Assembly: GCA_963082975.1 (NCBI GenBank)
Contig: OY720347.1
Coordinates: forward strand, 43,723,155-43,787,154
Source of the DNA: Labia minor
Lineage: Eukaryota; Arthropoda; Insecta; Dermaptera; Spongiphoridae
Direction: 5' to 3'
DNA length: 64,000 bases
The notes beneath the pieces are model-generated. The model made no database searches, was not told the DNA's origin, and saw only the letters and a program-made list of their open reading frames with translations. Below are positions 2,196 to 61,716 of the stretch, one piece after another. Numbering within the stretch: the stretch's first letter is position 1; each line of letters opens with the position of its first letter. Position numbers and translations under genes: made by a program.

Positions 2196-3550
2196 TTAAT
2201 TAGGTTGCGTCTATAACCGTCATGGGGTCAGCGGACTCTCGACACTAAGTAATGGGACGATGACGGCTATAGCAGCAAACATTTAAAAACGTAATTGATA
2301 GGTTTAATGACTCAAATAAGCATTTTTTTGTGTTCAACAAAGTATTTTTTGGGGTTTTACACGAAATGTTAGTTCATAATCAAACAAAAATAAATAAATG
2401 ACAAAAAAAATTATTATAATTTTATAATTATTATACATTAGTTTCGATATGCCATGTTTTTTAAGCATGGTGCAGGACACAGTGCAGGTTTTGACATGCA
2501 ATTCTTGCAGCAATACGATGTTTCTAATGCTGGATAATTTTAGCTGGGACTGAAGCAAACACAAACCTAAAAAATTTCTTATTTCAATCGTATCAGTATT
2601 TTTGAAATTTGCCTTCCTACTATGCCTTGTATGTGGCCGTGTTTGATTGCAAAGTTTTATGCCGTAATCATTTGTAGATTTGATAATCATTTCCATTACC
2701 TGATCATCCCATATTTTATCAAAAACCTGAATTGGAGAAACATTTTCGTCTATATCCAAAAGAATCCCAACGGCATCTGCATCAAAAGAAAAGTTTCTTA
2801 TAGGTATTGTATTGGTATGCCATGTTTAATCATTTTCTGGTGCTTCTAGTTCTTCATATTCCTCATCTGTAGTTGATTCATTATCTTCACAACTCGAACT
2901 ATCATATTCAGCACTGTCAGCATCAGATTCAGATGCACTGCTGCTTGACCCCTATCTATTTCCTCAAAAAGCCTCAGCAGCCTAGCTTCTCCCCTTCCCA
3001 ACTGGCTATTTTCTTTAAATATTGAATAAACATTTAAATTTTATTTTATATTATTAATTATTGTATATTATATATATATTTATTATTAACATTATTATTA
3101 TTTATTTATATTTCAAATATTCAAATTATAAAAAAAAAAAAAAATAAACAGTTAATGTTATACTGTTTACTTTTTAACACTAATATATCAAAAAATGCAA
3201 AATTTTCATTTTTTTATTTTCTCATTACATTGTAAATTCAATAATAAACAAATACTTACCAGTATAAACAATAAATATTGTTAAATGTATCAATAACAAC
3301 TATTATATAAATTCAAGAGATCGCGTTACTTTAACAATCTCGTGCATACATATCCAAAAAAATTTTTAAAAAGATTTTTTTCAAAAATGTGCCACTAGGT
3401 TTATACTTTTATGTAGGTAAATGCAAATTTGTGGTGCTATAATCGCAGGGTCTAAAAATGACCGTTTCCTTTTGGACGGCTATAGCCGTCATGTCACATT
3501 GTGAATTTCGCTTTGACGGCTATAGACGCAAGTGTCCGTCAACGTGTTAA
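2196..3550 (-). mobile_element. piggyBac-family element, decayed
   Basis: TTAA occurs at both edges (2196-2199 and 3547-3550), the piggyBac target. Just inside each edge lie inverted copies of TTGCGTCTATARCCGTCA (from 2205 on the plus strand and near 3534 on the minus strand), and a 16-bp palindrome GACGGCTATAGCCGTC lies near 3476. The left copy sits closer to its TTAA than the right, so the left tip may be shortened. The interior encodes a decayed DDE_Tnp_1_7 transposase N-terminus on the minus strand. The element is non-autonomous as it stands. Confidence 0.7.
2430..2965 (-). pseudogene. piggyBac transposase N-terminal remnant
   Basis: On the minus strand the reading begins with a Ser/Asp/Glu-rich acidic stretch (about 2965-2840), as is usual at piggyBac N-termini. 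After an in-frame stop (near 2827) it continues through a block with the family pattern: an FDKIWDDQVMEMI-like start, a conserved TRPHTRHSR region, then IEIRNFLGLCLLQSQLKL, matching the first helices of DDE_Tnp_1_7 (about 2760-2510). The three catalytic Asp regions are absent: the frame runs from the SLRNI-type region almost directly into unrelated AT-rich sequence. Family assignment is from memory of the family pattern; the stop and the missing core are seen directly. Confidence 0.65.
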
Positions 3551-5285: not shown

Positions 5286-6275
5286 CTGGAGTGTCTCCAT
5301 TCGACTATCTCGCAAATTTGAATTTGATTAATTTACATATATTATATTTAAATTAAATTTAATTAAATAAATTATAAATTAAAATTAATAAATAATATTT
5401 ATTAATCCAACGCGTGTTTTACTTTTTGTTAATGTCACCACGTCACGTACTGGCGCGTGATTGCCATTCAACGTGTTGAAAAATTAATTCCAGTACTTTC
5501 AGCGATTCAATCAAGCTGAAATTCTATATATAGCAGTTTTATTCAAATTTTATACATGTGAAAAACTATCAAACATATATCTTTATTATTACGATCACTT
5601 TAGAGGAAAAAAAATTAAAACGTTATAGGTAATGACCCTCTTTCGGTTGAGGTAGCTCAAAAGTTGATAGAAAACTACGAATTTTGTAAAATGCCCATGT
5701 ACCAAATTTCATAATTCTAGCTCAAACCGTTTTTGAGTAATCTTGTCTACACACACACATACACACATTTTTCTCAACCTTAGTGAAAATGATTCAGGAA
5801 CCTTCAAAACGTATAAAAACATCAAAATCTCAACATCGAAAATTTTCGTGATCGCAATAATATCTCTGGCGATAGTAAAAATGAAGAATGTAAGTTTGGA
5901 TATCAGAGGAAAAAAATGAAAACGTCGTAGGTAATGACTTTCTTCCGAAAGAGCTAAATTTCTCAAAAATTAATAAAAAAGTGAAAATGATTCAGGAACC
6001 TTCAAAACGTATAAAAACATCAAAATCTCAACATCGAAAATTTTCGTGATCGCAATACTATCTCTGGCGATAGTAAAAATGAAGAATGTAAGTTTGGATA
6101 TCAGAGGAAAAAAATGAAAACGTCGTAGGTAATGACTTTCTTCCGAAAGAGCTAAATTTCTCAAAAATTAATAAAAAACTACGAATTTTGAATAATGCCC
6201 AAATTACCAAATTTTATTATTTTAGCTCAACCGTTTTTGCGCAATCTTGTCTATATACACTCTGGCGAGATATTA
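5286..6275 (-). mobile_element. Repeat family 2 (GCGAGATAGT subterminal repeats), with internal tandem duplication
   Basis: A nearly complete copy in minus orientation. On the minus strand it opens in a T-run with the ACTATC... end, has a (CA)n-type microsatellite at about 5750-5766, and closes with GCGAGATAGT plus a short hairpin (TGGAG/CTCCA, 5286-5298 on the plus strand) next to a T-run. One part is tandemly repeated with a 198-bp period (GTGAAAATGATTCAGG at 5783 and 5981), and the two units differ at very few bases. The short frames that track the duplication on the minus strand are by-products of the repeat, not genes. Confidence 0.7.
5783..6178. repeat. 198-bp tandem duplication
   Basis: Two head-to-tail copies of 198 bp (5783-5980 and 5981-6178) inside the family-2 repeat. 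They are almost identical, so the duplication is younger than the element around it. Confidence 0.8.
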
Positions 6276-8675
6276 AAAATTACCATTTTCTATTTAGAGC
6301 ATAAACATCATAGATAATGAAATTTTTCAATGAAAAAATGTATTTAATTTATTTTTTATAGTCAACAATAAATCAATGATTTATATTTTTAGAAAAAAAA
6401 AACATATGAATACTCCACATATTAGATATTTAATATTTTTGAATTAAAAAAAAATATTAGATATTTATAGCAATTTTAATGCATCCTTCCAACCCTTTTC
6501 GGCTCCTTGTGAAATAGATAATGAGAACTAAATTTAACGTAGTATAAGCATTTGGCCGATCAATCTCCACCTTTGATCCATTTTGATGAGGAGAGTTGGG
6601 AGTAAGACGACCGCCCTGGCGCCAGCGAGTCGGTTCTGCCTCTCCATCCAATTGAAAGCAACTCAGCTAATAGGGCAGAGCGGATGCAACGCCTGGAAAG
6701 GACTATTAGGTCACCTTCTTCGGCACGTTTCTTATTTTTCTTTAAACCATTCAAATAATTTTATTGTTCTTTCGGATAAAAGTGGTATACCGCAAACGAT
6801 CATCCCAATAATACTGCAATCGGTGATATCTTTTTCAATTTTTTTTATTCTGTGTAACTGATTAACTCTTCGTCTTCTTTGAATTTTATTTTTTTAAAGA
6901 ATACCCTATATACCTAGTTATATATATATATATATATATTTCAAAGAGCCAGATACAAATTGATACTGAAATATTACTTCAAAAAATTTAAGATAGAAAA
7001 TCTAAAAAATATTTATTTGAAAATTATTTAATATATTTAAAAATTGCTCCCTTCCTCCTCAAGGGACTTAGAATATAAAATGTAAAAAATTTAAGTTAAC
7101 AAAATAATTTTATAACTGTGCTACTCAAAAATCAAAACGATTAACTCCATATATAAACAAACCTAGAAAATGAAGCCCAAAGTTCACAGCTTGTAGGAAA
7201 TTCAGGTTTATTGATTACAGAAATTGCATTGCAATATTAAGATTATCAAGTTCATTATTTACTTCATATGTTACAGATTTTAAAAATTAACAAAATTTTA
7301 AAAATTGGAGTTGATCGGTTTGGATTCTGAGTGGCACAACTTATAATGGATTTGGAACATTTATTAGGGCAACCAGCAGAAAAATAGAAGGATTAGAAAT
7401 GAAATTATTTTTGAATTAATGTGTTGACTTTTCGGACCCCTATCAGGACCTTTTCCAAGACTTTGGATAAATTATTTTTTCATCAAGAGTACGATAATAA
7501 ATTATAAATATATAATATATAAGTGACCCGTATATTAGATCTTTCTCATTCTCATAAATATTTAATGACTAAACTTATGAACTTAACACTTTGGATAAAG
7601 AATATTAACTATTTTTATAAAAAACTAAATTAAGCATTTGTACAAATATTATCTTTTACAAGGATCTATATTTTAGGATTTAATAACAGAAATCTAATAC
7701 CAATGCCAAATTTTTCATTATTAAAATATGGTTTTTGATGGAGACTATTGCTGCTAGTTCAGAGTTGCGTTTTTTGTTATCTTTAATACTTACCTAATTT
7801 GGATATAAGCTTCTGTCAAGTGACCATACCAAGTTTATATATCTATTTATTTATTAATAAATTCTTATATGAATATGTTTACTTAAATAAAGGAGTGTGA
7901 CGCTCATATCCTGAGGCGATTATACGCCTTGTCTCTAATATAATAATAATAATAAAATATTTATATTATAAATAATTTAAATTATATTATATTTATAATT
8001 ATTTTCCTTTATTTAGAGTGGTTCAATATGATTTATAGAGATGCAAAAATATTCATATTTTGATGATCTTCAAAAAATTTATTTAAATGAAAGAGTTTAA
8101 GGAAATCACAAAATATTTTAAAATCACAAGAGGAAACCAGTACTATTTTAGCAAGTAATAAAGTAAATTTGTTAGTAAATTTTCTTAATTAATTGTAATT
8201 TGATAAGTTTTATTTTTAATTAATCCAATTATGTTTTATTTTTATATATTTAATGGACATGTATTATTTAACTCTTTTATTTGAAATTGAAACTGTTCAT
8301 CTGTGTAATTTCCAAATACAATTATTAAATCTTGACCACAATGTTTATTTATACAGATCCGCTTAGAAACATACATGAGATAAAAAGCCCATTCAAAGCA
8401 AGTTGTTGGATTCGTTTCATGTCAACTGGCATTGTGTGCTAAAATCTCAGGCAATTTATGAAAACTATGCTGACTTGAATTTTTTCCCCTTTTGCTTTAC
8501 TGCGCCGTTACTTCAATCTGCTCTTATCTGAAATTGAAAAAAAGCGGTTTTCTTTATAGATCTCGGATCTATTTCTAAAATATTCTGCACTTTATTAATA
8601 GAGAAGAATTGATTGCTAAGTTAAAAGTTTCAAGTCCAGTTGGAGAATTTATTTTACAATAGCTCAACGTTTGCA

Positions 8676-8924: not shown

Positions 8925-9180
8925 TGTTCGCCTGCTACGCCTGTCACAATTGCATCGTTTATTATTGGATTCAATTAATTAATTAATTTCAAAGGAATGA
9001 TCGCATTCCGGCACGTTGACTGCTGTTGATCCGGTTTATAGCACCGGCTCATGGATTCCATTAAGGGGAATATCCGATCACTTGCATTCGCTTTTCGATA
9101 CAGTCCCTCTGTCCCTACAAGGGAAAACAATCTCTCAATCGAAGTCGGAGATAGGATGCTTTAGATAAAACATCCTGGAT
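8925..9180. other. GC-richer island with homeodomain-type core sites
   Basis: Mixed-composition sequence in an A/T background, with repeated ATTA/TAAT cores (about 8970-8985) next to G/C-containing blocks such as GCATTCCGGCACGTTGAC. No reading frame of interest. The look is that of a conserved non-coding element, but this is only inference from composition. Confidence 0.3.
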
Positions 9181-9427
9181 GTTTTTTTTAATCAATTCAT
9201 TTAAATACACCTCGTGATTAAATTTCATGATAATCCTTTTTTATATGATAATTTTTTACTTTTCATACGTTTTTATAAAAAGCTTTTTAATAAACGAATA
9301 AAGTACATAAGTGTACATATATTTTTTTTTGATTCTTAATAATTATCATAAAAAATATTTTATTTTTATTATAAAAATGTTTAAAAGAATAAATCTTATC
9401 TTAATATACTAGCAAAAATTGTATATA

Positions 9428-10004
9428 CGAGGGTGGGGTGAAAAGTTTCCGGCCTGATCAAGAAAAACTATGTTTTAATAAAATTTTTTTTTTCTTTATT
9501 TTTCAATATAATCTCCATCAACACTGATACATTTCTCATAACGGTGTTCTAATTTAGTTATGCCAGTTTTTAACGTAGATTCGTCAAGCTCCTCAAAATA
9601 CTGATTTACAGCTTGTATTAACTGTTCTTTATTTTCAGGAGTGTAGTGGTGGACCCAAGTCACATCAACAATTATGAATCGACGCGAGGCTCGTCAGAGG
9701 TGCTCACATGATCCATTTTAAATTCAAAAACCCACTGCTTAATAGTTGAATTTGATGGGAAGGAGTCTCCTAGTGTTGAATCCATCTTTTTTTTTGTTTT
9801 GGTGTAAAAACTTTCAAATAGAAGTATTTGATCACAGCACGTTTTTCCAATTTTTCCATTTTCACGAAACGCAAACTAACGTAGCGATTGGGCTGAAACT
9901 GTACACACAAACTCGGTAGGAATGATAATGTAGGACGCCACTCCAAAAGTAGACCTAATGGGGCCATTTCTTGGTCAGGCCGGAAACTTTTCACCCCACC
10001 TTTG
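9428..10004 (-). mobile_element. mariner-family element, internally deleted (577 bp)
   Basis: Flanked by TA on both sides (9426-9427, 10005-10006). The first and last ~35 bases are inverted repeats differing at about three positions (common core GGTGGGGTGAAAAGTTTCC). On the minus strand it encodes both ends of a mariner transposase but not the middle, so it is a non-autonomous deletion derivative. Confidence 0.85.
9486..9859 (-). pseudogene. mariner transposase, ends only
   Basis: Starting at the ATG at 9859 on the minus strand, the product begins MEKLEKRAVIKYFYLK, the usual first helix of mariner transposases (helix-turn-helix DNA-binding domain). It runs into stops after about 29 codons. 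Further on, the minus strand resumes with a stretch ending LEHRYEKCISVDGDYIEK, matching the typical mariner C-terminus (…KLxxRWxKCIxxxGDYVEK). The catalytic D,D34D core that should lie between is missing apart from a possible trace near 9680. Non-functional. Confidence 0.8.
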
Positions 10005-11584: not shown

Positions 11585-11677
11585 ATTTACTATCTCGCCA
11601 TAAAATTCGTAGTTTTCTATCAACTTTTGAGCTACCTCAACCGAAAGAGGGTCATTACCTATAACGTTTTAATTTTT
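11585..11677 (+). mobile_element. Family-2 repeat, 5' part, interrupted
   Basis: Begins with the TACTATCTCGCC end in plus orientation and continues through the 'GTAGTTTTCTATCAACTTTTGAG' block to a T-run, where a family-1 element (11678-12330) begins. The rest of the family-2 element does not follow in the same orientation, so the locus was rearranged after or during insertion. Confidence 0.65.
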
Positions 11678-12330
11678 ACCGACCGACGATAGTAAGGGAG
11701 GTATTGTTTTCACACCAAATTTCACATGTGGAGATTTTTACATATCTCCACGAATCATGCATTTTCTAAACAGAAAAAAGTATTTTTAGCATGATGTCTG
11801 TCCGTCCGTCCGTCCGTCTGTCCGTCTGTCCGTCCGTCCGTCCGTATAGATGTGTACAGCCTGAACGGCTTAACCGATTTTGATGAAATTTGGTATATTT
11901 ACTTAATGCATCAGTGGGATGAATTGATCAACTTTTGGTGCAATTCCGGAAACCGGAAGTGGTAGTATTAGCGATCGACGATAGGAAGGAAAGGGTTATT
12001 TTCACACCAAAGGAGATTTTTTTATATATCACCACGAATCATGCACTTTGTATTGGTTTTATCCTCGAGAAAAATCATATTTATTAGTTTTTTCTTGATT
12101 TAAAATTATATGACGTCATCCAGCCATTCATGACGTCACAGCCTGGACTTGCATATATATTATAAATAAAATAAAATTAAAAATGTTTATATTTATTATT
12201 TATGTATCCATATCTGTTTTTTATTACATTAATAGATATATTAAAATTATTTGAAATTGTTTCTGTAGCTGGAAATTAATTTATTTCAAACAGTCGGTCG
12301 GTTCGGACCTGGCCACAGGTCAACTTATTT
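11678..12330 (+). mobile_element. Repeat family 1 (ACCGACCGACG subterminal repeats), full-length copy
   Basis: About 653 bp. It starts ACCGACCGACGATAG directly after TTTTT and ends with the inverted copy CGTCGGTCGGT (here with one change), then a hairpin GACCTG-GCCA-CAGGTC and AACTTATTT. An internal (TCCG/TCTG)n microsatellite lies at about 11796-11845. The first ~90 bases are repeated in diverged form further in ('GCGATCGACGATAGGAAGG...'), so the element is itself a partial tandem. No protein is encoded. The set of features (T-tract target, subterminal inverted repeats, microsatellite, 3' hairpin) fits non-autonomous Helentron-type elements, by inference. Confidence 0.75.
11796..11845. repeat. 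(TCCG/TCTG)n microsatellite
   Basis: Tetranucleotide tract inside the family-1 repeat. The same tract, with a different repeat number, occurs at the equivalent point of the other family-1 copies. Confidence 0.85.
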
Positions 12331-12470: not shown

Positions 12471-12749
12471 TTCTCCATATTACTCAATTTTTTTGTTATT
12501 TTTTAGCAATTACACTTCTAAAAAATTAAAATAAGGATCGGTCTTAAATATATACCAGCTGGTCAGAGCGCCTTCGGCGCTCTTCACACCTGGACGGGTG
12601 CTCCGCCCCCTGTACCCCCGAGTGGTACATCGTATTTGGTTAAAAGTAGTAAAAGGTTTTCATCCATTTTGTTTCAATCATTATATTACATAAAACATTC
12701 ATTTCTTTTTGTGTTCTTATTTAAAATATATTTTAATTTAATCAGTAAA

Positions 12750-12787
<38 letters not shown>

Positions 12788-12789
12788 AT

Positions 12790-13250
12790 ATGTTATATCT
12801 ATCTATTTATATGGCTCAAAGATTCTCGAAAGTTCTTGGCCACATTTCTCCAAATGTCCCTATCCTGAGCCCTTGTCCCATCTCTCTTACGTCCCTTCCT
12901 ATGCGTCCATGGTCTTGATTCCCTTTGATAATAATTTTGATGAGATAAGCCTCTTTACTGCATGATAACAGGCGTTTCCCGATTGTTACCTCGATTTTAA
13001 TTCTTCTCAAATATTATTATCCTTCGTGATTACATTCAATTTTTTTACATATTCAAATTTTACATTTTGTATATTAAGATTTTGTATGTTAATACTGTTC
13101 CTCTTTGTCACTAAATATTTTTTCTTATCACTATTAATTTCAAACCTCCATTAATTTTTCCTCGCTATCTGTAATTGCAATTGCCGAATCTCTTATAATA
13201 TTTAAGACTACTGCTTAGCCTAACTTTTCAATTTTTTTGTTTAATTGCAT
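12790..13250 (-). pseudogene. LINE reverse transcriptase / C-terminal fragment
   Basis: On the minus strand, fragments match the LINE at 18.8-19.7 kb and 46.2-46.7 kb: a RT-motif remnant near 13220, 'GDSAIAI..DSEE' (about 13195-13150), 'EVTIGKRLLSCSKEAYL'-region shifted frames, and the C-terminal 'GRDVREMGQGLRIGTFGEMW' ending before an (AGATAGATATA) tail. Multiple frame changes make it dead. Confidence 0.7.
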
Positions 13251-18789: not shown

Positions 18790-19760
18790 AGAACCATAGG
18801 CGGAGGAAATATTAGGAGATATCATTGCGGGTTCAGGCCAAATCGACCAACATTAATTAAGATATTTTCATTATGACAGATATTAGGAAAAAAACCGCGA
18901 ATTCAATATTCAATCTGTTCACTAATTATTTGTAGACTTTAGTAAAACATACGCATGACTCAATAGATCCAATCAATCTTCAAATTTGTCTTGAAGGTAG
19001 TAAAGAAAGAATAAGATGCGGAAATCAATTGTAAAATATTAGGTTACCCAGACGACTTAAATATAATAGGAGATTCGGCAATTGCGATTACAGATAGCGA
19101 GGAAAATTTAATGGAGGTTTGAAATTAATAGGGATAAGAAAAAATATTTAGTAACAAAGAGGAAGAGTATTAACATACAAAATCTTAAGATACAAAATGT
19201 AGAATTTGAATATGTAGAAAAATTGAATGTAATCACGAAGGATAATAATATTTGAGAAGAATTTAAATCGGGGTTGCAATCGGGAAACGCCTGTTATCTG
19301 CAATAAAGAGGCTTATCTCTTCAAAATTATTATCAAAGGGAATATATAAAAAGATTATTTTGCCTGTTGCATTATATGGGTGGGAGGCATGGTCTATGAC
19401 CCTTGGAGATGAGAGTAGATTCAGAGTATTTGTGAATAGGATTCTTCCCTGCATTTATTGGCCAAAGAAAGATGAGGTCACCGGGTATGGGGGAGACTGC
19501 ATAACAAGAAATTGCATGGCCTCTCTGCATCTTCAGAAATAGTTAGGGTTATAAAAGGGAAAAAACTGCGATAGGCAGGGCACGTGGCTAGAATGGGAGA
19601 GGAAAAAGATATTGGTGGGAACGTCCGCTTGGAAAACCAATGACGCGTAGGAAGGGACGTAAGAGAGATGGAACAAGGGCTCAGGATAGGGACACTTGGA
19701 GAAATGTGGTTGTTGCGGCTAAGAACTTTCGAGTATCTTTGAGCCACATAGGTAGATAGA
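18790..19760 (+). pseudogene. LINE (non-LTR retrotransposon) RT and C-terminal region, decayed
   Basis: The plus strand in three frames shows RT landmarks in order: CGFRPNR (about 18825), a decayed 'IF..QIL.K.R.FN' stretch, YPDDLNIIGDS near 19060 (the F/YADD active-site box with A changed to P), then GLQSGNACY (19275), a 'GCEAWSMTLGDESRFR'-type block (19380), LHNKKLHGL, LRxAGHVARMGEE, and VREMEQGLRIGTLGEMW before the stop near 19742. The tail is (GATAGATATA). The C-terminal LHxxELxxLYxSxxIxxxIKxRRLRWAGHVARM pattern is common in arthropod RTE/Jockey-type LINEs. Many frameshifts and stops. Confidence 0.75.
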
Positions 19761-19993
19761 TATAACATATACAATAATAATATATATAATTAATATAGTG
19801 ATTAAATTAAAATATATTTTTTAAATAAGAACACAAAAAGAAATGAATGTTTTATGTAATATACTGATTGAAACAAAATGGATGAAAACCTTTTACTACT
19901 TTCAACCACCAAATACTATGTACCACTCGGGGGTACAGGGGGCGGAGCCCCCGTCTAGGTGTGAAGAGCGCCGAAGGCGCTCTGAGCAGCTAG
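19761..19993 (+). mobile_element. Helitron 3' terminus
   Basis: Follows directly on the LINE tail. It contains a GC-rich hairpin GGGGGC-GGA-GCCCCC (19938-19952), then the terminal hairpin AGAGCGCC-GAA-GGCGCTCT (19965-19983), GAGCAG and CTAG (19990-19993) before T. Its counterpart on the minus strand at 12555-12785 is joined to the same LINE tail, so LINE and Helitron end were together before this piece was copied. Confidence 0.8.
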
Positions 19994-21216
19994 TTAGATA
20001 TAAAAATTAATATTTAAAAGAATTTATTATTAAGTTCATTTATTTATTAATTTTTTTAGGGCATAGTTAATTCCCTCCCTTAAACTACAATGACTGTCAC
20101 GAAGGTACATTTCATATGATTAAATGATATCTATCTGATGTTGTAAGGTAGAGTAAGTAATGAACATATATTTATACTTTTTAATTGTTAAATTTAAATG
20201 ACAATATTTAACTAAAAAGTCAATTCTAATCTCAACAATATATACATATATAATTATATGTGTGTGTAAAATATATGAATATATTGATAGAGGTGTAAAG
20301 ATAATAATTATATTAATTGTAACTTCTTTATATTTAAATAAATCATGTGTTTTCTTAAATTGTTTTTCATATTTCTATTATTTTTTTTACAATTAGCAAC
20401 ATGTGTTGAAAAAAATAATTAAATACCCTGATAACCTATTCTGATCTTAAAATCAACATTTATTTTTGCTAATTTTTTATACACACACATAATTGTATCA
20501 ATTAGTTAATATTACCTAATGAATCAATTTTATTTACATAGAAATAATTATTATATTTTTTCTGAAAAAAATAAATATGATTTTTATTTTAATATTTCTT
20601 TTATTTTTATTTAATAATAAGATATTTAATTCTGCAAATCAATATTTTTTTATAAGATAATATTTTAAGTTGTCGAACTTAATTTTTATATTTCTTTATA
20701 AACATGGTAAAATAAAAAAAGATCTAATCTTAGGTTAGTACTTTTTAAACAATAATATTAATATTTATATAGTAAATCTTTCATATTGATGAAATAGTAT
20801 GATTCAAAATTAGTCATATATTAACAAAAACAATTGAAATAATATACATTTTTTAAAATATATAATAATTTAAAAATTAAGTTTTAATTCAATAGTTCAA
20901 TTTCTTTCATATACTTTTACAAGTTTTTAGTATTGATACAAATGATAGAAAAAAAATTAAATATCTTATTGATGTAAGTTAATATAACATAATAGTAGGA
21001 GAGTTTCCTCCCTTCCCTTTTTCTTTAAAAAGTAGATTTTTTTTTGGTTATAATTAAAAATATAAAAATACATTCAATTAAATATTTAATAGACTAGCTG
21101 CTCCGATAATAATAATATACCGTTTAATACGTGAAAATAATAATAATAATAATAATTTATTAAATTAATATAATTGAAATTTTATTTTTTATTATTACAT
21201 TTTTATTTTTATTTTT
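19994..21216. other. AT-rich intergenic DNA
   Basis: A/T sequence with simple ATA repeats (about 21131-21156). No gene. Confidence 0.7.
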
Positions 21217-21525
21217 AGCGACCGACGATAGTAAGGGAGGTATTGTTTTCACACTAAATTTCACATGTGGAGATTTTTACATATCTCCACGAATATTTCT
21301 TAATTTAAAATTATATGAAGTCACCCAGCCATTCATGACGTCACAGCCTGGTCTTACATATATATTACAAATAAAATAAAATTAAAAATATTTATGTTAT
21401 GTCCATATCTGTTTTTTTATTACATTAATAGATATATTAAAATTATTTGAAATTGTTTCTGTAGCTGGAAATTAATTTACTTCAAACCGTCGGTCGGTTC
21501 GGACCTGGCCACAGGTCAACTTATT
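21217..21525 (+). mobile_element. Repeat family 1, internally deleted copy
   Basis: Starts GCGACCGACGATAG after a T-run and ends with CGTCGGTCGGT and the GACCTG-GCCA-CAGGTC hairpin. The middle is missing: the sequence passes from the first 'CTCCACGAAT' to 'TTTCTTAATTTAAAATTATATGA', so the microsatellite is lost. 309 bp instead of about 650. The 3' part of a family-2 element follows directly. Confidence 0.75.
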
Positions 21526-21527
21526 TT

Positions 21528-21843
21528 TCTTCTAAAGTGACCGTAATAATAAAGATATATGTTTGATAGTTTTTCACATGATTAAAAATTGTATAAAACT
21601 GCTATATATAGAATTTCAACTTGATTGAATCGCTGAAAGTACCAGAATTAATTTTTTAACACTGCAAATCTCAAGCGCCAACACGTGAGGTGCCATCAAC
21701 AAAGAGCCAAACATGTATGCACTGGTTTAATAAATATTATTTATTAGTTTTAATTTATAATTAATTAAATTTAATTTAAATATAATGTAAGTATTTATTA
21801 ATTAATCCAATTCAAATTGCGAGATAGTCGAGCTAATTTTCTT
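21528..21843 (+). mobile_element. Repeat family 2, 3' part
   Basis: Runs from 'TTTCTTCTAAAGTGACCGTAA' through the conserved middle ('GAATCGCTGAAAGTACCAGAA') to GCGAGATAGTCGAG at about 21820-21833. The 5' part is absent; family 1 occupies the point where it should join, in the same T-run where family 1 sits at 11.68 kb. Confidence 0.7.
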
Positions 21844-29616: not shown

Positions 29617-29945
29617 TAGCTGGAGTTTCTCCACTCGACTATCTCGCAAATTTGAATTGGATTAAATAACATATATTATATTTAAATTAAATTTAATTAA
29701 TTAAATTATAAATTAAAATTAATAAATCATATTTATTAAACCAGCGCATGTTTGGCTCTTTGTTGATGGCACCACGTAACGTGTTGAAGCGTGAGATTTG
29801 CAGTGTTAAAAAATTAATTCTAGTACTTTCAGCAAATAAATCAAGCTGAAATTCTAGATATAGCAGTTTTATACAATTGTTAATCATGTGAAAAATTATC
29901 AAACATATATCTTTATTTTTACGGTCACTTTAGAAGAAAAAAAAA
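29617..29945 (-). mobile_element. Repeat family 2, 3' half
   Basis: Minus orientation. The hairpin end (TGGAG...CTCCA, here with a loop TTT) lies at 29622-29634, followed by ACTATCTCGC and the conserved 'GGCACCACGTAACGTG' and 'TACTTTCAGCAAATAAATCAAGCTG' blocks. It stops at 'AGAAGAAAAAAA', where other copies continue. The minus-strand frame across it is incidental. Confidence 0.7.
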
Positions 29946-30139
29946 GTCGAATTGGCAGTCGTGGGACTGGCCGACAGAAGTGAAAACTTGTGCGTAAGAA
30001 ATTTGAAAGCAGACGGAATGCGCACCAGCTTCACGATAAAAATGAAATTTATATACGTATATATATATATATAAAATTCATAATTATTTTTTTCAGCAAA
30101 CTGATTATTATTACAAAAATATTAAAAATACGATGTGTA

Positions 30140-30350
30140 TGAATATATATATATGTCTGTCTGTCTGTCTGTCTGTGTGTGTCTGTCAAATACTCAAAAA
30201 CTACCCGTCCGATTGCGATGAAACTTTCAGGGATTGTTGTGGGCGTCCCAGGGAAGGTTTTAGTGTAGTTAAATCCAAAATTAATTTATCCAAAATTAAT
30301 TTAAATAGTAATATTTTGGTAAAAGTCTATTTATGGTTACCATGGTTACA
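30140..30350 (+). repeat. (GTCT)n-headed interspersed sequence
   Basis: A (TGTC)n tract (30153-30188) is followed by 'AAATACTCAAAAACTACCCGTCCGATTGCGATGAAACTTTCAGGG', a type of sequence common beside Helitron-like repeats. The open frame across it begins in the microsatellite and is not a gene. Confidence 0.45.
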
Positions 30351-31207
30351 TTGAAAAATTTACAATAAATAAATAAAAATAATTGGAAATCTTTTCAAAT
30401 TATTATTTTGATAAATTTTATTAATATTTTTAATTTTTTTTAAACTGCCAAAAATAACATACCCATAATAATAGTTGTAATAAAAATAAAAATATAAATC
30501 ACAATGTAAGTAAAATATTGAATCGTTTTATTTATATTGTTTCAATTATTGTTTGAATATTTATTAAATTTATATATAGATTAATTTACATGTTTAAATG
30601 TATATTTAATAAATTTATTTATTGATTCTTAATATTAATAATTCCAATTACTTTCTTGAAAATTTTTTTTATTTAAAAGCATATTCAGCATATCTCGCAA
30701 ATTTGAATTGGATTAAATAACATATATTAATTTAAATTAAATTAAATTAATTCAATTATAAATTAAAATTAATAAATAATATTTATTAAACCAGCGAAAG
30801 TTTGGCTCTCTTTTGATGGCACCACGTCACGTGTTGGCGCGTGAGATTTCCAGTGTTAAAAAATTAATTCTGGTACTTTCAGCAATTCAATTTTCGATGT
30901 TGAGATTTTGATGTTTTTGATGTTATAAATAATATTTATTAAATTATAATTTAATTAATTTAATTTAATTTAAATTAATAAATATTATTTAATCAAATTC
31001 AAATTTGCGAGATAGTCGAGTGGATAGTGGAGTGTTTGGCTCTTTGTTGATGGCACCACGTCACGTGTTGGCGCGTGAGATTTCCAGTGTAAAAAAATTA
31101 ATTCTGGTACTTTCAGCGATTCTATCAGGCTGAAATTCTATATATAGCAGTTTTATACAATTATTAATCATGTGAAAAATTATCAAACATATATCTTTAT
31201 TTTTACG

Positions 31208-31650
31208 GTCACACACACACACACACACATATTTAAAAATTAATTTATTAAAATATATATTATATAATATATTATATATAGTATATAATTTAATATATAT
31301 ATATATATATATTCTGAAATTAATTTTAAATTATATAAATATATTAGAAATTAATTTAATATAATTTAACACATAATAATATATTAAAATATTTTATTTT
31401 ATATATACATAATTTAGTAATACTGATTATTAATGTAAATATAAATAATAATATTTAATATGGCAAATATGTAAAATTTCGTAAAGAATGTATCAGAAGT
31501 TTAGTGTCTAACATTCTGGTGTATTGCGCATGCGTATATCGGTCGGCCGGTCGGGTCGGTGTCGTTTTGGAATCTCACGCGAAATCTATATTTTTTCCCC
31601 ATCCCGCAAAAGTGCTCAACGCCGCTAAAGAAGTTTTCACTTCAATAATT
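31208..31650 (+). repeat. Module S, copy 1
   Basis: Starts with (CA)n, passes through an A/T-only stretch with (TA)n, and ends in a GC-rich tip of about 140 bp with TTGCGCATGCGTAT (31524-31537), CGGTCGG-type repeats and 'AACGCCGCTAAAGAAGTTTTCACTTC'. It lies where ordinary family-2 copies have a simple 'GGTCACTTTAGAAG', so S is an insertion or captured segment. Copies 2 and 3 are nearly identical. Confidence 0.75.
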
Positions 31651-31987
31651 TAAAGTTACAACTTGTTGAGAAATGAACATTTCCTTTAAAACTGTTTAAA
31701 ACCCCAGAGTGGACGCTGACAATTTGGGTTTTTCCCTCCCCTGGTTTTCCCCAATAACGAAGTTAAAGAAAATTCCTTTATATGGCCTCCCCTTCCGAGC
31801 CCCTAAGCGGGGTTACTTTAAAGGAACAATCGAAAAATGATTTTAAATGAATGAATGGATGAAAATTCAAATTTTATATATAGTTTTTTATATATGTTTA
31901 TTTATTCACAAAAAATTAATTGACATAATTATCAATTTAATAAAATAAAATAGTATTATTAATAGTATTAAATTATAGCCGTAATGT
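31651..31987 (-). mobile_element. Inverted piece of the hAT 5' region
   Basis: Nearly identical, in reverse orientation, to about 36835-37190 inside the hAT element at 36.7 kb. A stretch of about 170 bp (from AAAGGAACAATCG to AGCCGTAAT) shows no difference that I can see. It lacks the hAT terminal repeats. Either an internal fragment was copied here, or this piece is an independent element that also inserted into the hAT. Confidence 0.8.
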
Positions 31988-32117
31988 GAATGTTTTCAAA
32001 GTTTAAAAGGCCAATAAGATCAATTGAGATATTGTAAATATCATTAGATATATAAAAAGATTTTTATCTGCACATTGCTCAGAATTTAAATTACCAACAT
32101 ATATCTTTATTTTTACG

Positions 32118-32194
32118 ATCACACACACACACACATATTTAAAAATTAATTTATTAAAATATATATTATATAATATATTATATATAGTATATAA

Positions 32195-32226
<32 letters not shown>

Positions 32227-32556
32227 TCTGAAATTAATTTTAAATTATATAAATATATTAGAAATTAATTTAATATAATTTAACACATAATAATATATTA
32301 AAATATTTTATTTTATATATACATAATTTAGTGATACTGATTATTAATGTAAATATAAATAATAATATTTAATATGGCAAATATGTAAAATTTCGTAAAG
32401 AATGTATCAGAAGTTTAGTGTCTAACATTCTGGCGTATTGCGCATGCGTATATCGGTCGACCGGTCGGGTCGGTGTCGTTTTGGAATCTCACGCGAAATC
32501 TATATTTTTTCCCCATCCGCAAAAGTGCTCAACGCCGCTAAAGAAGTTTTCACTTC
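32118..32556 (+). repeat. Module S, copy 2
   Basis: Same layout as copy 1, with the TTGCGCATGCGTA palindrome at about 32438-32450. Flanked on the left by a Helitron-like 5' fragment (32045-32096) and on the right by the family-2 sequence ATTAATTCTGGTACTTTCAG. Confidence 0.75.
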
Positions 32557-32905
32557 AAAAATTAATTCTGGTACTTTCAGCAATTCAATTTTCGATGTTG
32601 AGATTTTGATGTTTTTGATGTTATAAATAATATTTATTAAATTATAATTTAATTAATTTAATTTAATTTAAATTAATAAATATTATTTAATCAAATTCAA
32701 ATTTGCAAGATAGTCGAGTGGATAGTGGAGTGTTTGGCTCTTTGTTGATGGCACCACGTCACGTGTTGGCGCGTGAGATTTCCAGTGTAAAAAAATTAAT
32801 TCTGGTACTTTCAGCGATTCTATCAGGCTGAAATTCTATATATAGCAGTTTTATACAATTATTAATCATGTGAAAAATTATCAAACATATATCTTTATTT
32901 TTACG

Positions 32906-33379
32906 GTCACACACACACACACACACATATTTAAAAATTAATTTATTAAAATATATATTATATAATATATTATATATAGTATATAATTTAATATATATAT
33001 ATATATATATATTCTGAAATTAATTTTAAATTATATAAATATATTAGAAATTAATTTAATATAATTTAACACATAATAATATATTAAAATATTTTATTTT
33101 ATATATACATAATTTAGTAATACTGATTATTAATGTAAATATAAATAATAATATTTAATATGGCAAATATGTAAAATTTCGTAAAGAATGTATCAGAAGT
33201 TTAGTGTCTAACATTCTGGCGTATTGCGCATGCGTATATCGGTCGGTCAGTCGGGTCGGTGTTCAGTCGGGTCGGTGTTCAGTCGGGTCGGTGTCGTTTT
33301 GGAATCTCACGCGAAATCTATATTTTTTCCCCATCCGCAAAAGTGCTCAACGCCGCTAAAGAAGTTTTCACTTCAAAAA
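32906..33379 (+). repeat. Module S, copy 3, with 16-bp triplication
   Basis: Same as copies 1 and 2 but the GC-rich tip contains CAGTCGGGTCGGTGTT three times in tandem (33248-33295), where the others have one. The TTGCGCATGCGTAT palindrome is at 33224-33237. Confidence 0.8.
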
Positions 33380-33640
33380 TCAAAACGTTGTAGGTAATGA
33401 CCCTCTTCCGGTTGAGCTACATTTCTCAAAAGTTGATAGAAAACTATGAATTTTGAATAATGCCCATGTACCAAATTTCATCATTCTAGCTCAAACCGTT
33501 TTTGCGTAATCTTGGTTACATACATACACACACACAGACATTTTTCTCAACCTTAGTGAAAATGATTCAGGAACCTTCAAAACGTATAAAAACATCAAAA
33601 TCTCGACATCGAAAATTTTCGTGATCGCAGTAAAAAACAG

Positions 33641-34515: not shown

Positions 34516-35018
34516 ACTATCTCGCCGTTTTTATACGATTTGAAGGTCTTTGAATCATTTTCACTAAGGTTGAGAAAAATGTTTGTGTGTGTATTATGTG
34601 TATGAAGACAAGATTAGGCTAAAACAGTTTGAGCTAGAATCATGAAATTTGGAATACGGGCATTATTCAAAAGTCGTAGTTTTCTATCAACTTTTGAGAA
34701 ATGTAGCTCATCCGGAAGAGAGTCATTACCTACGACGTTTTTATTTTTATTTTCCTATAAACTGACCGTAAAAATAAAGATATATGTTTAATAGTTTTTC
34801 ACATGATTAAAAATTGTATAAAACTACTATATATAGAATTTCAGCTTAATTGAATAGTTGAAAGTACCGCAATTAATTTTTTAACACGACTGCAAATCAC
34901 GCGGCATCAACAAAGATCCAAACACGCGCTGGTTTAATATATATTTATTAATTTTAATTAAATTTAATTTAAATATAATATATTTTAATTAATCCAATTA
35001 AAGTGGAGAAACTCCAGA
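34516..35018 (+). mobile_element. Repeat family 2, complete copy
   Basis: Plus orientation. It begins ACTATCTCGCCG right after TTTTT, contains a short GT-rich tract (34581-34610) and ends with the hairpin GTGGAG-AAA-CTCCAG followed by ATTTTTC. The 3' GCGAGATAGT has been lost by a small deletion. Both flanks are T-runs, as in the other copies. Confidence 0.75.
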
Positions 35019-35443: not shown

Positions 35444-36402
35444 CAGTGTTTCTCAACCTTTTTAAGACCCGCTTCTTAATTCGCCCCCCTATAAATTTTT
35501 ATAGATAAAAATTGCATGATAATCCCTAATATAAGGTAGATACACTAGGTGATACTTAGAGCCATATTGAAAAATTGAGTTTCAGAACCTGAATGCAAAA
35601 TCATCTGACCTTTTTTTAGAACCATATCGAAAAAAATTGAAAAAAAGAGGAAATGTTTAAAAAGCCTGTTAGCAAAATCATCTTACCTTTTTTACCGACC
35701 GACGATAGTAAGGGAGGTATTGTTTTCACACCAAATTTCACATGTGGAGATTTTTACATATCTCCACGAATCATGCATTTTCTTAACAGAAAAAAGTATT
35801 TTTAGCATGATGTCTGTCCGTCTGTCCGTCCGTCCGTATAGATGTGTACAGCCTGAACGGCTTAACGGATTTTGATGAAATTTGGTATATTTACTTAATG
35901 CATCAGTGGGATGAATTGATCAACTTTTGGTGCAAATCCGGAAACCGGAAGTGGTAGTATTAGCGATCGACGATAAGAAGGGAAGGGTTATTTTCGCACC
36001 AAATTTCACATAAGGAGATTTTTTTACATATCACCACGAATGTATTGGTTTTATCCTCGGGAAAAATCATCTTCATTATGTTTTTCTTAATTTAAAATTA
36101 TATGACGTCACCCAGCACTTCATGACGTCACAGCCTCGGGTAACGCCGGCAACGCCGGCTTCTTCAGCTATATATTATAAATAAAATAAAATTAAAAATA
36201 TTTATGTTATATCCATATCTGTTTTTTATTACATTAATAGATATATTAAAATTATTTGAAATAGTTTCTGTAGCTGGAAATTAATTTATTTCAAACCGTC
36301 GGTCGGTTCGGACCTGGCCACAGGTCAACTTATTTAGAGTTGAAAATGATTTCGCCCCCCAAAATCGTATAGTCAAATAATCGCCCAGGTTGAGAATCAC
36401 TG
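35444..36402. mobile_element. Non-autonomous hAT element with 8-bp target duplication
   Basis: Perfect 8-bp direct repeats CTCTAGAC at 35436-35443 and 36403-36410. Terminal inverted repeats CAGTGTTTCTCAACCT / CAGTGATTCTCAACCT. Subterminal GCCCCCC / GGGGGGC blocks are also inverted. The target fits nnnTAnnn, the preference reported for Buster-type hATs. No transposase. Internally, two copies of 'GCAAAATCATCT.ACCTTTTTT' are present, and a family-1 repeat (35694-36335) is inserted in the second one. Confidence 0.85.
35694..36335 (+). mobile_element. Repeat family 1, full-length copy nested in hAT derivative
   Basis: Starts ACCGACCGACGATAG after TTTTTT and ends with CGTCGGTCGGT, the GACCTG-GCCA-CAGGTC hairpin and AACTTATTT before AGAG. 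The uninterrupted sister segment in the same host element reads ACCTTTTTTTAGA, so the borders are defined by comparison: insertion in the T-run, with no obvious longer target duplication. (TCTG/TCCG)n is at 35811-35840. Confidence 0.85.
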
Positions 36403-43941: not shown

Positions 43942-44287
43942 ACCGACCGACGATAGGATGGGAATGTATTGTTTTCACACCAAGTTTCACATGTGGAGAT
44001 TTTTACATATTTCCACAAATCATCCATTTTGTTAATAGAAATTCTATTTATATCATGATGTCTGTCCTTCTATCTGTCCGTCCGTCCATTGTGTGTCCAA
44101 ATAGGCGTATACAGCTTGAAATAAAATTACGAAATATATATTATATTATATCCACAGGCCATACTTTTGTCTTTTAGTGCATTAATAAGTACGTTTAAAG
44201 TTTGTATATTTTATTACTATTTTTTTTTAATTTATGTTCTTTTAAATTTAAATTATTTGAGCGGCGGCTCGGTGAACCAGGTACTAA
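43942..44287 (+). mobile_element. Chimeric repeat: family-1 5' end, different 3' end
   Basis: The first ~150 bp match family 1 (ACCGACCGACGATAGGATGG after TTTTT, then the TCTG/TCCG tract at 44060-44090). The rest matches the 10.4-10.6 kb repeats and ends GGCGGCTCGGTGAACCAGG then TACTAA before T. A 5' end and a 3' end from two families are thus combined in one copy, as expected from rolling-circle read-through or template switching. Confidence 0.6.
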
Positions 44288-49344: not shown

Positions 49345-49850
49345 CTTTGAAATAATTTAATTAAAAAACAGATATGGATATAACATAAATATTTTTAATT
49401 TTATTTTATTTATAATATATAAGTAAGAGCTGGCTGTGACGTCATGAAGTGCTGGGTGACGTCATATAATTTTAAATTAAGAAAAACTAATAAAGATGAT
49501 TTTTCTCGAGGATAAAACCAATACAAAGTACATGATTCGTGGAGATATGTAAAAAATCTCTTCATGTGAAATTTGGTGCAAAAATAACCCTTCCCTTCCT
49601 ATCGTCGATCGCTAATACTACCACTTCCGGTTTCCGGATTTGCACCAAAAGTTGATCAATCCACCATACTGATGCATTAAGTAAATATACCAAATTTCAT
49701 CAAAATCCGTTCAGCCGTTCAAGCTGTACACATCTATATGGACGGACGGACGGACGGACAGACATCATACTAAAAATACATTTTTCTGTTAAGAAAATGC
49801 ATGATTCGTGGAGATATGTAAAAATCTCCACATGTGAAATTTGGTGTGAA
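49345..49850 (-). mobile_element. Repeat family 1, copy lacking both tips
   Basis: Minus orientation. It contains the TGACGTCA...TGACGTCATATAA block (49436-49470), CCGGAAACCGGAAGTGGTAG inverse (near 49621-49640), the CGGACGGACGG tract (49740-49760) and the 'CATGTGGAGATTTTTACATAT' block up to 49850. The CGGTCGG ends and the hairpin are absent. It begins only a few bases after the piggyBac-derived element. Confidence 0.75.
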
Positions 49851-51203
49851 AAAAATAATTGGTTAGGGTTGTTAAATTTTGTAAATATGTTATTTTAATA
49901 AATTTCTTAATAAATAATTATAATTATAAAATTTTTTAAATGTAATTAAGTTGATTTATAAAATATATAATTATCTTTAATTACTTTTTGATTAAAGTAT
50001 ATATATATATATACCTGTAATATAATAGAAGTTATATGATCAAATTATATGATTAATGATTATTATATGATTAAATTTTTAATTAAAGTGATTTGTTAAT
50101 TATTGTTATTATATTAGTTTATATTATTTTTGATTTGTTAATTATTGTTATTATATTAGTTTATATTATTTTTAAAATATCAAACAAGACATGAAAATAC
50201 AATATTTATAATTTTTTAATAAATTTTCATTTTTTTTTATTTTTTTTTATTTTGTTAACTTGGTGAGTCAAAAGTTTGTTTTTAATCAATATTTTCCTAA
50301 ATATCTAAAATTACATTAAAAAAAAAAAATAATCAAAATTATTTAAAAAGATTCCTATCTGGAACTACCTTAAGGTATTACCTCAAGCGGGGAGGCCATA
50401 GTTCACCCAATCATACGTCTCTTTCTTGCCTGATTCTTCTTCACAATCCATCTACTACAACTCATTTGTCAGGATTTCCAATCATATACTCGATCAGATT
50501 ATATATTATCATATCAGTCGCATACAGAATATATATTATGGGTACTATTTAGTTTGTAACTAATACAATAATTTTCCTATTGAAAATTTGAATTATCCAT
50601 GAGTTTAAAGGTTTAAACTATAATAAAATAGCTAATCAGTTGTTTAAACCGTTTAAGAGCTGTATATAACGAATAATTCTTTTCATTCGTTTCCTTAAAA
50701 TAAAATATAACATAACATTAATTAAATATAAGATTAAAAAGAGACGAAATATTTTCCAGCACTTAATTTAAATTATAAGTTATCATTTTATTCAATATAT
50801 TTCCAAATATAATAACAAATAATAGATATTAGATTGAACGAAAATGAAAGCAATTGTAATATTAAAATGTATTATTCAATATTAAAAAGTTTACAATATA
50901 TGTCTAGTATACTATGGAAAAATATTATATTCTCCATGGGGACAAGAACTTTTCAATTCACTAGCACCGTAGAGTTTATAAACTAACAATTCATTCACCA
51001 AAATGTAAAGGTGAATTATTCAATTTATTCCTGCCACGTTTTTGAATGCATATAAAATTTTAATAACATCATTTTTATACCTACCAGGGAGACTATTTGA
51101 AAATTTAATGGGTTAACCGCAACTAGAAGATGGAACAAAATTTAATGAATTTGTTAATAAATAAGATAACTTGGGCATTTACAATTTGATTATTATTATT
51201 TAA

Positions 51204-51478: not shown

Positions 51479-51628
51479 TTGTCATGGTGCCAAACACGCG
51501 CTGGTTTAATAAATATTATTTATTGATTTTAATTTATAATTTAATTAATTAAATTTAATTTAAATATAATATATGTTATTTAATCCAATCAAATTTGCGT
51601 GATAGTCGAGTGGAGACACTCCAGCTTA
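51479..51628 (+). mobile_element. Repeat family 2, 3' end fragment
   Basis: From 'TTGTCATGGTGCCAAACACGCG' to GCGTGATAGTCGAG, the hairpin TGGAG-ACA-CTCCA (51610-51622) and GCTTATTTTC. Useful because the 3' tip is intact. Confidence 0.75.
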
Positions 51629-55367: not shown

Positions 55368-55885
55368 TCTAGAGTGTCTCCACTCGACTATCTCGAAAAT
55401 TTGAATTGGATTAATTAACACTTATATTATATTTAAATTAATAAATAATACTTATTAAACAAGCGCGTGTTTGGCTCTTTGTTGATGGCACCACGTCACG
55501 TGCTGGCGCGTGTTAAAACATTAATTCTGGTACTTTCAGCAATTCACTCAAGCTGTAATTCTATATATAGCAGTTTTATACAATTTTTAATCATGTGGAA
55601 AAACTATGAAACATATATCTTTATTTTTACGGTCAGTTTATAAGAAAAAAAATGAAAACGTAGTAGGTAATGACTTTCTTTCGGATGAGCTACATTTCTC
55701 AAAAGTTGATAGAAAACTACGAATTTTATATACCAAATTTCATTATTCTAGCTCAAACTGTTTTTGCCTAATCTTGTCTACATACACACATACAAACACA
55801 CACATACACACAGATATTTTTCTTCACCTTAGTGAAAATGACTGAAATTTTCGTGATCGCAATACGATCTCTCCCGAGATAGTAA
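55368..55885 (-). mobile_element. Repeat family 2, complete copy
   Basis: Minus orientation. The hairpin end (GAGTGTCTCCACTC, 55371-55384) is next to ACTATCTCG. Then come the 'GGCACCACGTCACGTGCTGGCG' block, the TATATATAGCAG block, a (CACA/TACA)n tract (55780-55812), and CGAGATAG followed by TAAAAATT at 55870-55885. The 'CCTTCAAAACG...CATCGAAA' segment is missing. The plus-strand frame at 55606-55845 lies inside it and is not a gene. Confidence 0.75.
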
Positions 55886-57456: not shown

Positions 57457-57660
57457 AAAATAAGTTGACCTGTGGCCAGGTCCGAACCGACCGACGGACG
57501 GACGGACGGACAGACATCATGCTAAAAATAGCTGAGATGTGTATAGCTGGAACGGCTCAACAGATTTTGATAAAATTGATATATTTACTTCACGCATCAG
57601 TAGCATGAATTCATCAACTTTTGGTGTATATCAGGAAATCGTAGTGTAGTTTACAAAGAA
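57457..57660 (-). mobile_element. Repeat family 1, 3' end and deleted interior
   Basis: Minus orientation. It reads AATAAGTTGACCTG-TGGC-CAGGTC, then ACCGACCGACG, and passes directly into the GGACGGACGG microsatellite. The deletion has therefore joined the two CCG-rich repeats, removing about 400 bp. The remaining part continues to about 57640. Confidence 0.7.
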
Positions 57661-60871: not shown

Positions 60872-61715
60872 TTACTCATCCAACACTATGTTCCACATCT
60901 TATTAAGTCTATATCCATCCTCTTTGTTAATATTATTGGGATGATTATCAATTTCTATAGATTCTTTTATTTTTCTTTTCCACCAATTATTTTCAATATG
61001 AAGTGTTTCTACATTATCTAAATTTATTTTATGTCCTGTTGTTAAGGCATGTTCTGCAATTGCTGATTGATTTGGATGTTTCAATCTAATGGCTCTCTCA
61101 TGTTCAGACAGTCTTGTAGAAATCTTTCTACTTGTTTCACCAATGTATACTTTTTTGCATTCACAAGTTACCTTATAAACTCCATTATTTTCGTTTTTAA
61201 TTTTGTCTTTTATATTTGAGGTGAGAGAAGACATTTGTTTATGAGGTTTATATGTTACTCTGATGTTGTGTTTCCTCAATTTTGACGCTATTTTTTCTGT
61301 TGTTCCTTTTATATAAGGTAATGTTATTTGTGATCTGTATATTGGTTTTTCATTTTCATTTTTGATTTCTGTCTTTTTTGTTTTACTGAATTTCTTAATT
61401 TCATATTCCGAGAAGCCATTGTTTATGAAAGCTTCCTTCAATCGTTGTTTTTCTTTTTTAATGTTTTCATTTGAGCATATCTCTTCGGCTCTTTTGTGCA
61501 GTGTTTTTATCACTCCATATTTTTGTGATGGATGGTGGTGGGAATCTGCGTGGATATATCTGTTGGTGTGAGTTGTTTTCCTGAAAATATCAAACCTTAA
61601 TCTATTCTGTTTCTTTTTAATTAATACATCAAGAAACGGTAACTCTTCATTTATTTCCCATTCAACGCTTAGTTTTATATTTTTATGTAAATTATTTGCT
61701 GCTTCTACAAATTCA
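60872..61715 (-). pseudogene. Penelope-like element, 5'-truncated copy (RT end + GIY-YIG)
   Basis: An open minus-strand frame of about 280 codons, starting in the middle of the reverse transcriptase (FVEAANNLHKNIKLSVEWEI, LPFLDVLIKKKQN), then the connecting region and a C-terminal GIY-YIG endonuclease domain: GVYKVTCECKKVYIGETSRK, R..EHERAI, AEHALTTGHKI, ending WNIVLDE. At its 5' end it is joined directly to a terminal segment (61717-61800), in place of the RT fingers and palm. It is nearly identical to the plus-strand copy where they overlap. It has no RT active site, hence non-autonomous, although its frame is intact. Confidence 0.9.
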
Positions 61716-61716
61716 T

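Follow-up and report, generated by a model that had tools for sequence, protein, structure and literature searches.

The window analysed here, meaning the whole stretch of 64,000 nucleotides from Labia minor (G000:C5:43723155-43787154, from a 604-Mb assembly in 71 contigs), has an A+T content of 74.5% and gave no match in Rfam (gathering threshold) or tRNA searches. Its open frames have a eukaryotic look, and include some that we take to be zinc-finger, hAT-like and Penelope-like. A 401-aa frame on the minus strand (42298-43503) consists of zinc-finger units of 84 bp arranged in tandem; of 11 copies, 9 are 82-92% identical to the reference copy, which suggests that the array recently expanded. 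Oppositely oriented frames at 60872-64000 repeat one same protein stretch, and presumably resemble Penelope-like retroelements with a GIY-YIG end. At 12545-13143 and 19119-20015 there are repeats whose hairpin is GCGCC/GGCGC; these are related to sequence beside two elements discussed below, A and D, and inspection by eye suggests derivatives of canonical Helitrons.

The window also harbors copies and fragments of three repeat families, here called F1, F2 and F3 (Table 1). An earlier note on this DNA had described the first two as dispersed families of one plan, and both are real: the tips, hairpins, microsatellites and T-rich flanks of each were found. Its list of copies requires revision. 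For F1, 11678 and 35694 are complete plus-strand copies, but 57457 marks a minus-strand fragment of the 3' end, for which no 5' tip was found within the window, and the fragments at 43942-44087 and 49353-49857 had been missed. For F2, positions 5286, 29617 and 55368 had been read as 5' ends after TTTTT; because these copies lie on the minus strand, the coordinates are instead 3' (hairpin) ends beside A runs, and 51479, given as the start of a copy, belongs to a 3' fragment. F3, a third family of the same plan, had been overlooked; it sits inside the F2 copy at 29621-33631, inserted into that copy's T tract.

Table 1. Copies and fragments of the three repeat families in the window.
Feature	Positions	Strand	Remarks
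F2 copy	5287..6074	-	one 3' end (hairpin 5287-5299), two 5' tips (5876, 6074) from a 198-bp tandem repeat
F2 5' tip and shortened stretch to the F2 T tract	11589..11677	+	tip after TTT; joined to F1
F1 complete copy	11678..12327	+	TTTTT before; AACTTA, then Ts, after
F1 short copy	21217..21523	+	tip changed to AGCGACCGACG
F2 3' half	21524..21831	+	joined directly to F1 3' end; F2 hairpin missing
F2 3' half with 3' hairpin	29621..29944	-	broken at its T tract by F3
F3	29946..33374	-	3' tip AAGTTTTCACTTC-hairpin-AATTCGAC; 5' tips GAAGTGAAAACTTC at 33374, 32556, 31643
F2 5' half	33375..33631	-	beyond the inserted F3; shortened 5' tip
F2 copy	34516..35017	+	5' tip without inner palindrome arm
F1 complete copy	35694..36332	+	
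F1 5' fragment	43942..44087	+	absent from earlier list
F1 body fragment	49353..49857	-	absent from earlier list
F2 3' fragment with hairpin	51479..51623	+	
F2 copy	55370..55883	-	3' hairpin from 55370; altered 5' tip ends 55883
F1-type 3' end	57461..57641	-	hairpin; subterminal repeat running into TCCG array; internal module order inverted

Copies elsewhere in the genome fix the borders of F1 between TTTTT and ACCGACCGACG on the 5' side and between hairpin-AACTTA and TT on the 3' side. A genome search with F1 returned 50 matches from the best 40 scored of 1,537 candidates, among them a full-length copy at C6:37016820 that is 100% identical to the copy at 11678 over 664 bp. All ten loci L001-L010 (L001 being the window copy), which are the closest F1 relatives because they are the best 10 of the 40 scored, carry a run of 5 or more Ts immediately upstream of ACCGACCGACGATAG and have GACCTGGCCACAGGTCAACTTATT as their end. 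In the copy at 11678 the subterminal repeats are ACCGACCGACG and AGTCGGTCGGT, and their match spans 10 bp rather than the 11 bp first reported; a TCCG/TCTG microsatellite lies at about 11796-11845 and the 3' hairpin at 12306-12321. Inside F1 there is a second copy of the 5' block (roughly the first 90 bases), about 75% identical.

F2 is older and more varied than F1. Its search gave 43 matches from the best 40 scored of 10,485 candidates, and among these 40 the long matches other than the window copy are 82-87% identical. Genome copies place its borders at ACTATCTCGCCAGAGATAGT after a T run and at the 3' hairpin; the fullest 5' end is ACTATCTCGCCAGAGATAGTATTGCGATCACG directly after the T run. 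The fuller 5' end ACTATCTCGCCAGAGATAGT is itself a palindrome, exact in two of 12 loci (L057 and L060); the remaining 10 have it changed, truncated or missing. By eye, the 5' tip follows a T run in 11 of the 12 loci (exact in 2, altered or shortened in 9; not in L052), and the 3' hairpin is present, exact or altered, in 11 (not in L056). The 3' flank is mostly T-rich without being uniform: of 9 distinct flanks beside an exact hairpin, 3 reach a TTTT no more than six bases out, and in 3 the sequence is GCTTAT. The F2 microsatellite is CA/TG only, with no GTCY.

F3 is about 1.7 kb long elsewhere in the genome. The window copy has three 5' tips (33374, 32556 and 31643) and one 3' tip, with a TCTG/TG microsatellite at about 30155-30187 and F2-derived pieces inside. 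The family has 13-bp subterminal repeats and a 3' hairpin; its 3' tip was found in 12 of the 12 best loci and its 5' tip in 11 (L061 being the window copy), the fetched stretch of L070 containing none. The 39 other scored places (best 40 of 1,215 candidates) are 98-99% identical to the 391-base query, and the exact 25-base 3' tip occurs 2,271 times in the assembly, against 0 for a reversed-pattern control. F3 therefore looks young.

The common plan of these families can be compared with chance, for which one copy per family was subjected to 1000 dinucleotide shuffles. The tested copies have subterminal inverted repeats of 10 bp (F1), 10 bp (F2) and 13 bp (F3), the 5' one at the T run and the 3' one inset by 25, 17 and 31 bp, respectively, from the end as set in this analysis; the hairpin stems are 6, 5 and 5 bp. 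Inverted repeat and 3' hairpin together were reached by 0, 1 and 0 of 1000 shuffles for F1, F2 and F3, and the inverted repeat alone by 2, 5 and 0. The hairpins by themselves are weak evidence, since 72, 225 and 398 of 1000 shuffles reach them, and for F2 and F3 they are not beyond chance. Further, 21 of 2000 random 650-bp stretches of the window contain a repeat of at least 10 with a stem of at least 5. The case rests more on recurrent borders than on the shuffle numbers.

Counting exact tips only and dropping the window copy L001, at least 5 Ts stand in 27 of 28 distinct 5' flanks of F1 and 12 of 14 of F3; all four exact-tip 5' flanks of F2 have 4 or 5 Ts. For 35 distinct sites the two flanks were joined and searched for in all the available sequence (at least 85% identity over 70% of the query), and three of the 35 have clean paralogous empty sites: F3 in F3, F3 in F2 and F1 in F1 (24, 13 and 18 matches, counts in which some places figure both in the window and in their own locus). 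No empty site turned up for F2 as the inserted element. Where the F3 of L064 lies in F3's internal site, the empty form has 8 T and the filled form 5 + 8, a net gain of 5. For the window F3 in F2, the empty form has 7-9 T (11 copies counted) and the filled form 5 + 9, a net gain of 5 to 7. For the F1 of L074 in F1, the empty form has mostly 6 T (5-7) and the filled form 5 + 3, a net gain of about 2. The comparison of filled and empty sites that the earlier note had proposed thus bears out, for F1 and F3, that the elements enter T runs and that nothing but Ts is gained.

This pattern bears on whether the families could instead be MITE-like derivatives of a cut-and-paste (DDE) transposon that duplicates TT on insertion. 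The gain of about two Ts by F1 in F1 would suit such an origin, and DINE-1 itself was once so interpreted (PMC2374699). However, F3 gains at least 5 Ts, not two, and the 3' repeat is inset by 17-31 bp and has the hairpin outside it, so that neither terminal inverted repeats at the extreme ends nor a duplication of fixed length is seen. The earlier note had named a fixed-length duplication as one of the observations that would speak against its reading; at the three empty sites (one F1, two F3) no non-T base is duplicated and there is no common fixed length. A duplication of Ts alone is indistinguishable from Ts carried by the element, and the same ambiguity between Ts of the element and duplicated Ts is described for DINE-1 (PMC2374699). 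A MITE-like origin is unlikely.

The families also share an internal feature. F1 and F2 were said to have no common sequence, but both carry ATGAAATTTGG...ATCAACTTTTG with its two parts equally spaced, a score that 0 of 1000 shuffles reach. F1 also has AACGGCT..ACGGATT/ACCGATT..ATGAAATTT in common with a repeat that lies beside element D, is of Helitron type and looks canonical (0 of 1000 shuffles). The module of F3 is alike to that of F1 by eye and not beyond shuffles (494 of 1000); the comparisons of F2 with F3 (906), F2 with the canonical-looking repeat (122) and F3 with that repeat (75 of 1000) likewise do not pass. The module adjoins the microsatellite in F1, F2 and F3. An exact 21-mer of it has 0 matches in viral_contigs and 1 in genome_contigs, which is a chance match because it lies inside an apparently ordinary bacterial open frame.

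Another origin to weigh for the three families is from canonical Helitrons, which start with 5' TC, end in 3' CTRR and insert between A and T; this genome has such elements too. A search of the assembly with PF14214 gave 104 matches from 126 candidates, all scored, and among the 30 Rep loci fetched, 22 read GLPH and 4 read GSPH (L036-L039), the pattern used detecting neither form in the remaining 4; both the 22 GLPH loci and the module shared by F1 and the repeat beside D, which looks canonical by eye, would be consistent with such a derivation. The ends of the elements are at odds with it. Their 5' ends after T runs are ACC, ACT and GAA and their 3' ends AACTTA, CTCCA(G) and TTCGAC (F1, F2 and F3), with no 5' TC or 3' CTRR. 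F1 and F3 insert in T runs, not at the A/T site reported for canonical Helitrons in PMC5148889, and canonical Helitrons lack inverted repeats (PMC3630058). We consider a canonical Helitron origin very improbable. The reading that we prefer, with a probability of roughly 85%, takes F1, F2 and F3 to be three DINE-1-like families of HINEs, which means rolling-circle transposons of the Helentron/Helitron2 class that are non-autonomous. The DINE-1/HINE-type classification proposed earlier is upheld by the borders, the repeats and 3' hairpin, the T-run insertion of F1 and F3, the lack of any stop-to-stop frame of at least 110 aa inside the window copies, and the multiple 5' ends and chimeras described below.

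Rep/helicase elements that could serve such families exist in the same assembly. The GSPH signature is found in elements A, C and D, whose Rep frames match DUF6570, Helitron_like_N and PIF1; these three frames gave no Pfam match to an endonuclease. A further frame, of 2181 aa, lies at C1:47868109. GSPH-type Rep/helicase genes with long open frames are thus present. A, a Helentron-class element at C9:34498524, has four near-identical copies, and comparison with its copy B places the 5' border at ACCACGTTTTTC directly after TTTT, which differs from the 5' tips of F1-F3. The 3' side of A is uncertain because another element abuts there: an element with 164-bp inverted repeats of 98% identity, on the right side of A at C9:34494542-34495401 (9100-9959 in the numbering of the joined stretch). 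For C and D, a search for the borders found none. A locus at C1:36766900-36768020 (L088) is a fusion of D 2740-3463 (99%) with D 7429-7811 (97%), and thus a deletion derivative of D in which the DUF6570 N-terminal region and the 3' part are kept and the Rep and helicase deleted; L088 is one of 17 places that match only the N-terminal part of D, the other 16 lying in frames of 171-420 aa. A cluster of Helitron_like_N matches at G000:C5:46739897-46792979, with several equal scores and spacings of about 5.7 and 9.8 kb, possibly consists of tandem copies.

None of these is tied to the families by its tips. The flanks of four Rep elements were fetched, and the fetched stretches of A, C and D contain no F1, F2 or F3 tip. 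Pieces of F1 lie near Rep matches three times: one is beside B, one precedes a match full of stops (L035) by about 1.3 kb, and one is 2.9 kb away from the 33-residue fragment at C1:60491419; as far as these were read, F1 is never the bounding tip. Places where a tip stands beside foreign sequence were examined as candidate partners. The F1 3' tip has non-F1 upstream bases at 8 places, all F1 variants when the loci are read; the F3 3' tip has non-F3 upstream bases at 3, of which L081 is a truncated F3 relative, and the F3 5' tip has other downstream bases at 2. For the F1 5' tip, there are 16 places with other downstream bases, and among the five read, L083 and L084 are F1 variants, L085 and L086 other sequence, and L087, considered as a Helentron piece, an F1 tip beside another inverted-repeat element (the piece that follows the tip there is related to the 164-bp-repeat element abutting A). 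Of these 29 tip-pattern places of F1 and F3, 0 lie 20 kb or less from any of the 104 Rep matches. The patterns were exact and demanded a mismatch at each of several neighboring bases, so that a partner may have escaped them. Of the scored places, 1 of 40 for F1 and 0 of 40 for F3 lie within 20 kb of a Rep match. The suggestion that one unseen autonomous Helentron drives both F1 and F2 is therefore not borne out: no Rep element bounded by F1, F2 or F3 tips was found in the stretches fetched or, for F1 and F3, by tip pattern, and the 5' end of A and B differs. A single partner is further argued against because three unrelated tip sets would make three families by the 11-bp rule given in PMC4067079. 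The autonomous partners need not be one element.

Structures with several 5' ends and one 3' end are attributed, in PMC5148889, to self-insertion followed by replication from the outer 5' tip to the first 3' tip. Joins between families are also found in the window: 11589-12327 is a chimera that runs from an F2 5' tip to an F1 3' tip, and 21217..21831 is one that runs from an F1 5' tip to an F2 3' end. The junction of the F1 3' end with the F2 3' half recurs at 40 of 40 scored places (best 40 of 828 candidates), 39 of them outside the window with 93-98% identity, and 26 of the 40 show no net length change. The junction of the F2 5' half with the F1 5' tip recurs at 13 of 40 scored places, window included (best 40 of 2,220 candidates), over nearly the whole query at 11 (window included) and in part at 2. 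These multiple 5' ends and repeated F1/F2 chimeric junctions are consistent with rolling-circle transposition. For the chimeras only, and compatibly with the main reading, it is also possible that F1 inserted independently and repeatedly into the T tract of the abundant F2 and that the nested copies were later truncated. With 7-9 T, the T tracts of F2 make good targets for this, and both junctions occur at one place in 2 of the 40 right-junction places, the left one about 650 bp upstream. Against it, the copy at 21217 has no F2 on its left, and the junction recurs at those 39 further places with the identities given, 26 of the 40 at the same length; this is not decisive, because only the best 40 of 828 and the best 40 of 2,220 candidates were scored. 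Independent nesting is thus a serious possibility, if one from which we lean away.

Comparison with described systems places F1-F3 as new families of the known HINE/DINE-1-like kind, and not as a new kind of system. DINE-1/INE-1 of Drosophila (PMC2374699) is alike in its subterminal repeats, in a partial inverted repeat that adjoins the 5' repeat (clearly so in F2), in a GTCY microsatellite (F1 and F3), in a 3' stem-loop after the inner repeat, and in T-rich sites and high copy number; its tips and bodies differ, and F2 has a CA/TG array rather than GTCY. The 90-bp core of DINE-1 lies beside the microsatellite, as does the module of F1-F3, a likeness in placement. The HINEs of the mite Metaseiulus (PMC4067079) have palindromic subterminal repeats (as F2 and partly F3), a palindrome near the 3' end, T-rich targets, varying terminal T numbers and no target modification, and a microsatellite in only some copies. 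Unlike here, the inner repeat is 38-60 bp from the 3' end (17-31 bp in our families) and an autonomous partner was found. The oyster Cg_HINE elements (PMC7492417) have a subterminal and a complementary repeat, a GTCY-type microsatellite in several, a 3' palindrome, oligo-T sites and no duplication, but carry satellite arrays where F3 has F2-derived pieces. Fusarium FoHeli/Helitron2 elements (PMC5148889) also have several 5' termini per 3' terminus, with chimeras explained by self-insertion; the surveyed ones carry a transposase gene, whereas F1, F2 and F3 are gene-less, and FoHeli1/2 use insertion sites with TNAT on one side and A or T on the other. Among the literature titles listed, subscription papers and Repbase being outside the coverage, none names F1-F3, and searching the three tips as letters in paper texts matched 37 papers, of which the 10 listed are by title not about transposons.

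Under a rolling-circle mechanism, a Rep/helicase supplied in trans would nick at the 5' tip after the T run; the strand would be unwound to the 3' hairpin, which would act as terminator; and a single-strand or circular intermediate would be joined into another T run. Where one element lies in another's T tract, a start at the outer 5' tip and a stop at the inner 3' tip would yield an F2-F1 chimera, and a start at the inner 5' tip with reading past its own terminator an F1-F2 chimera. A broader account, which we regard as rather doubtful, would have F1, F2 and F3 trading ends through nested T-tract insertions, with mobile and amplifying F2-5'/F1-3' and F1-5'/F2-3' chimeras and with one machinery reading the tips as equivalent starts and stops; its driver would be endonuclease-lacking GSPH-type Rep/helicases, Helitron2-like and not classical Helentron.

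The three families described above add to the HINE kind a very young member (F3) and a very abundant one (F2), with empty sites for F1 and F3. If the chimeras prove mobile, start and stop signals would be interchangeable between HINE families, and F3 would be a good bait for a currently active partner.
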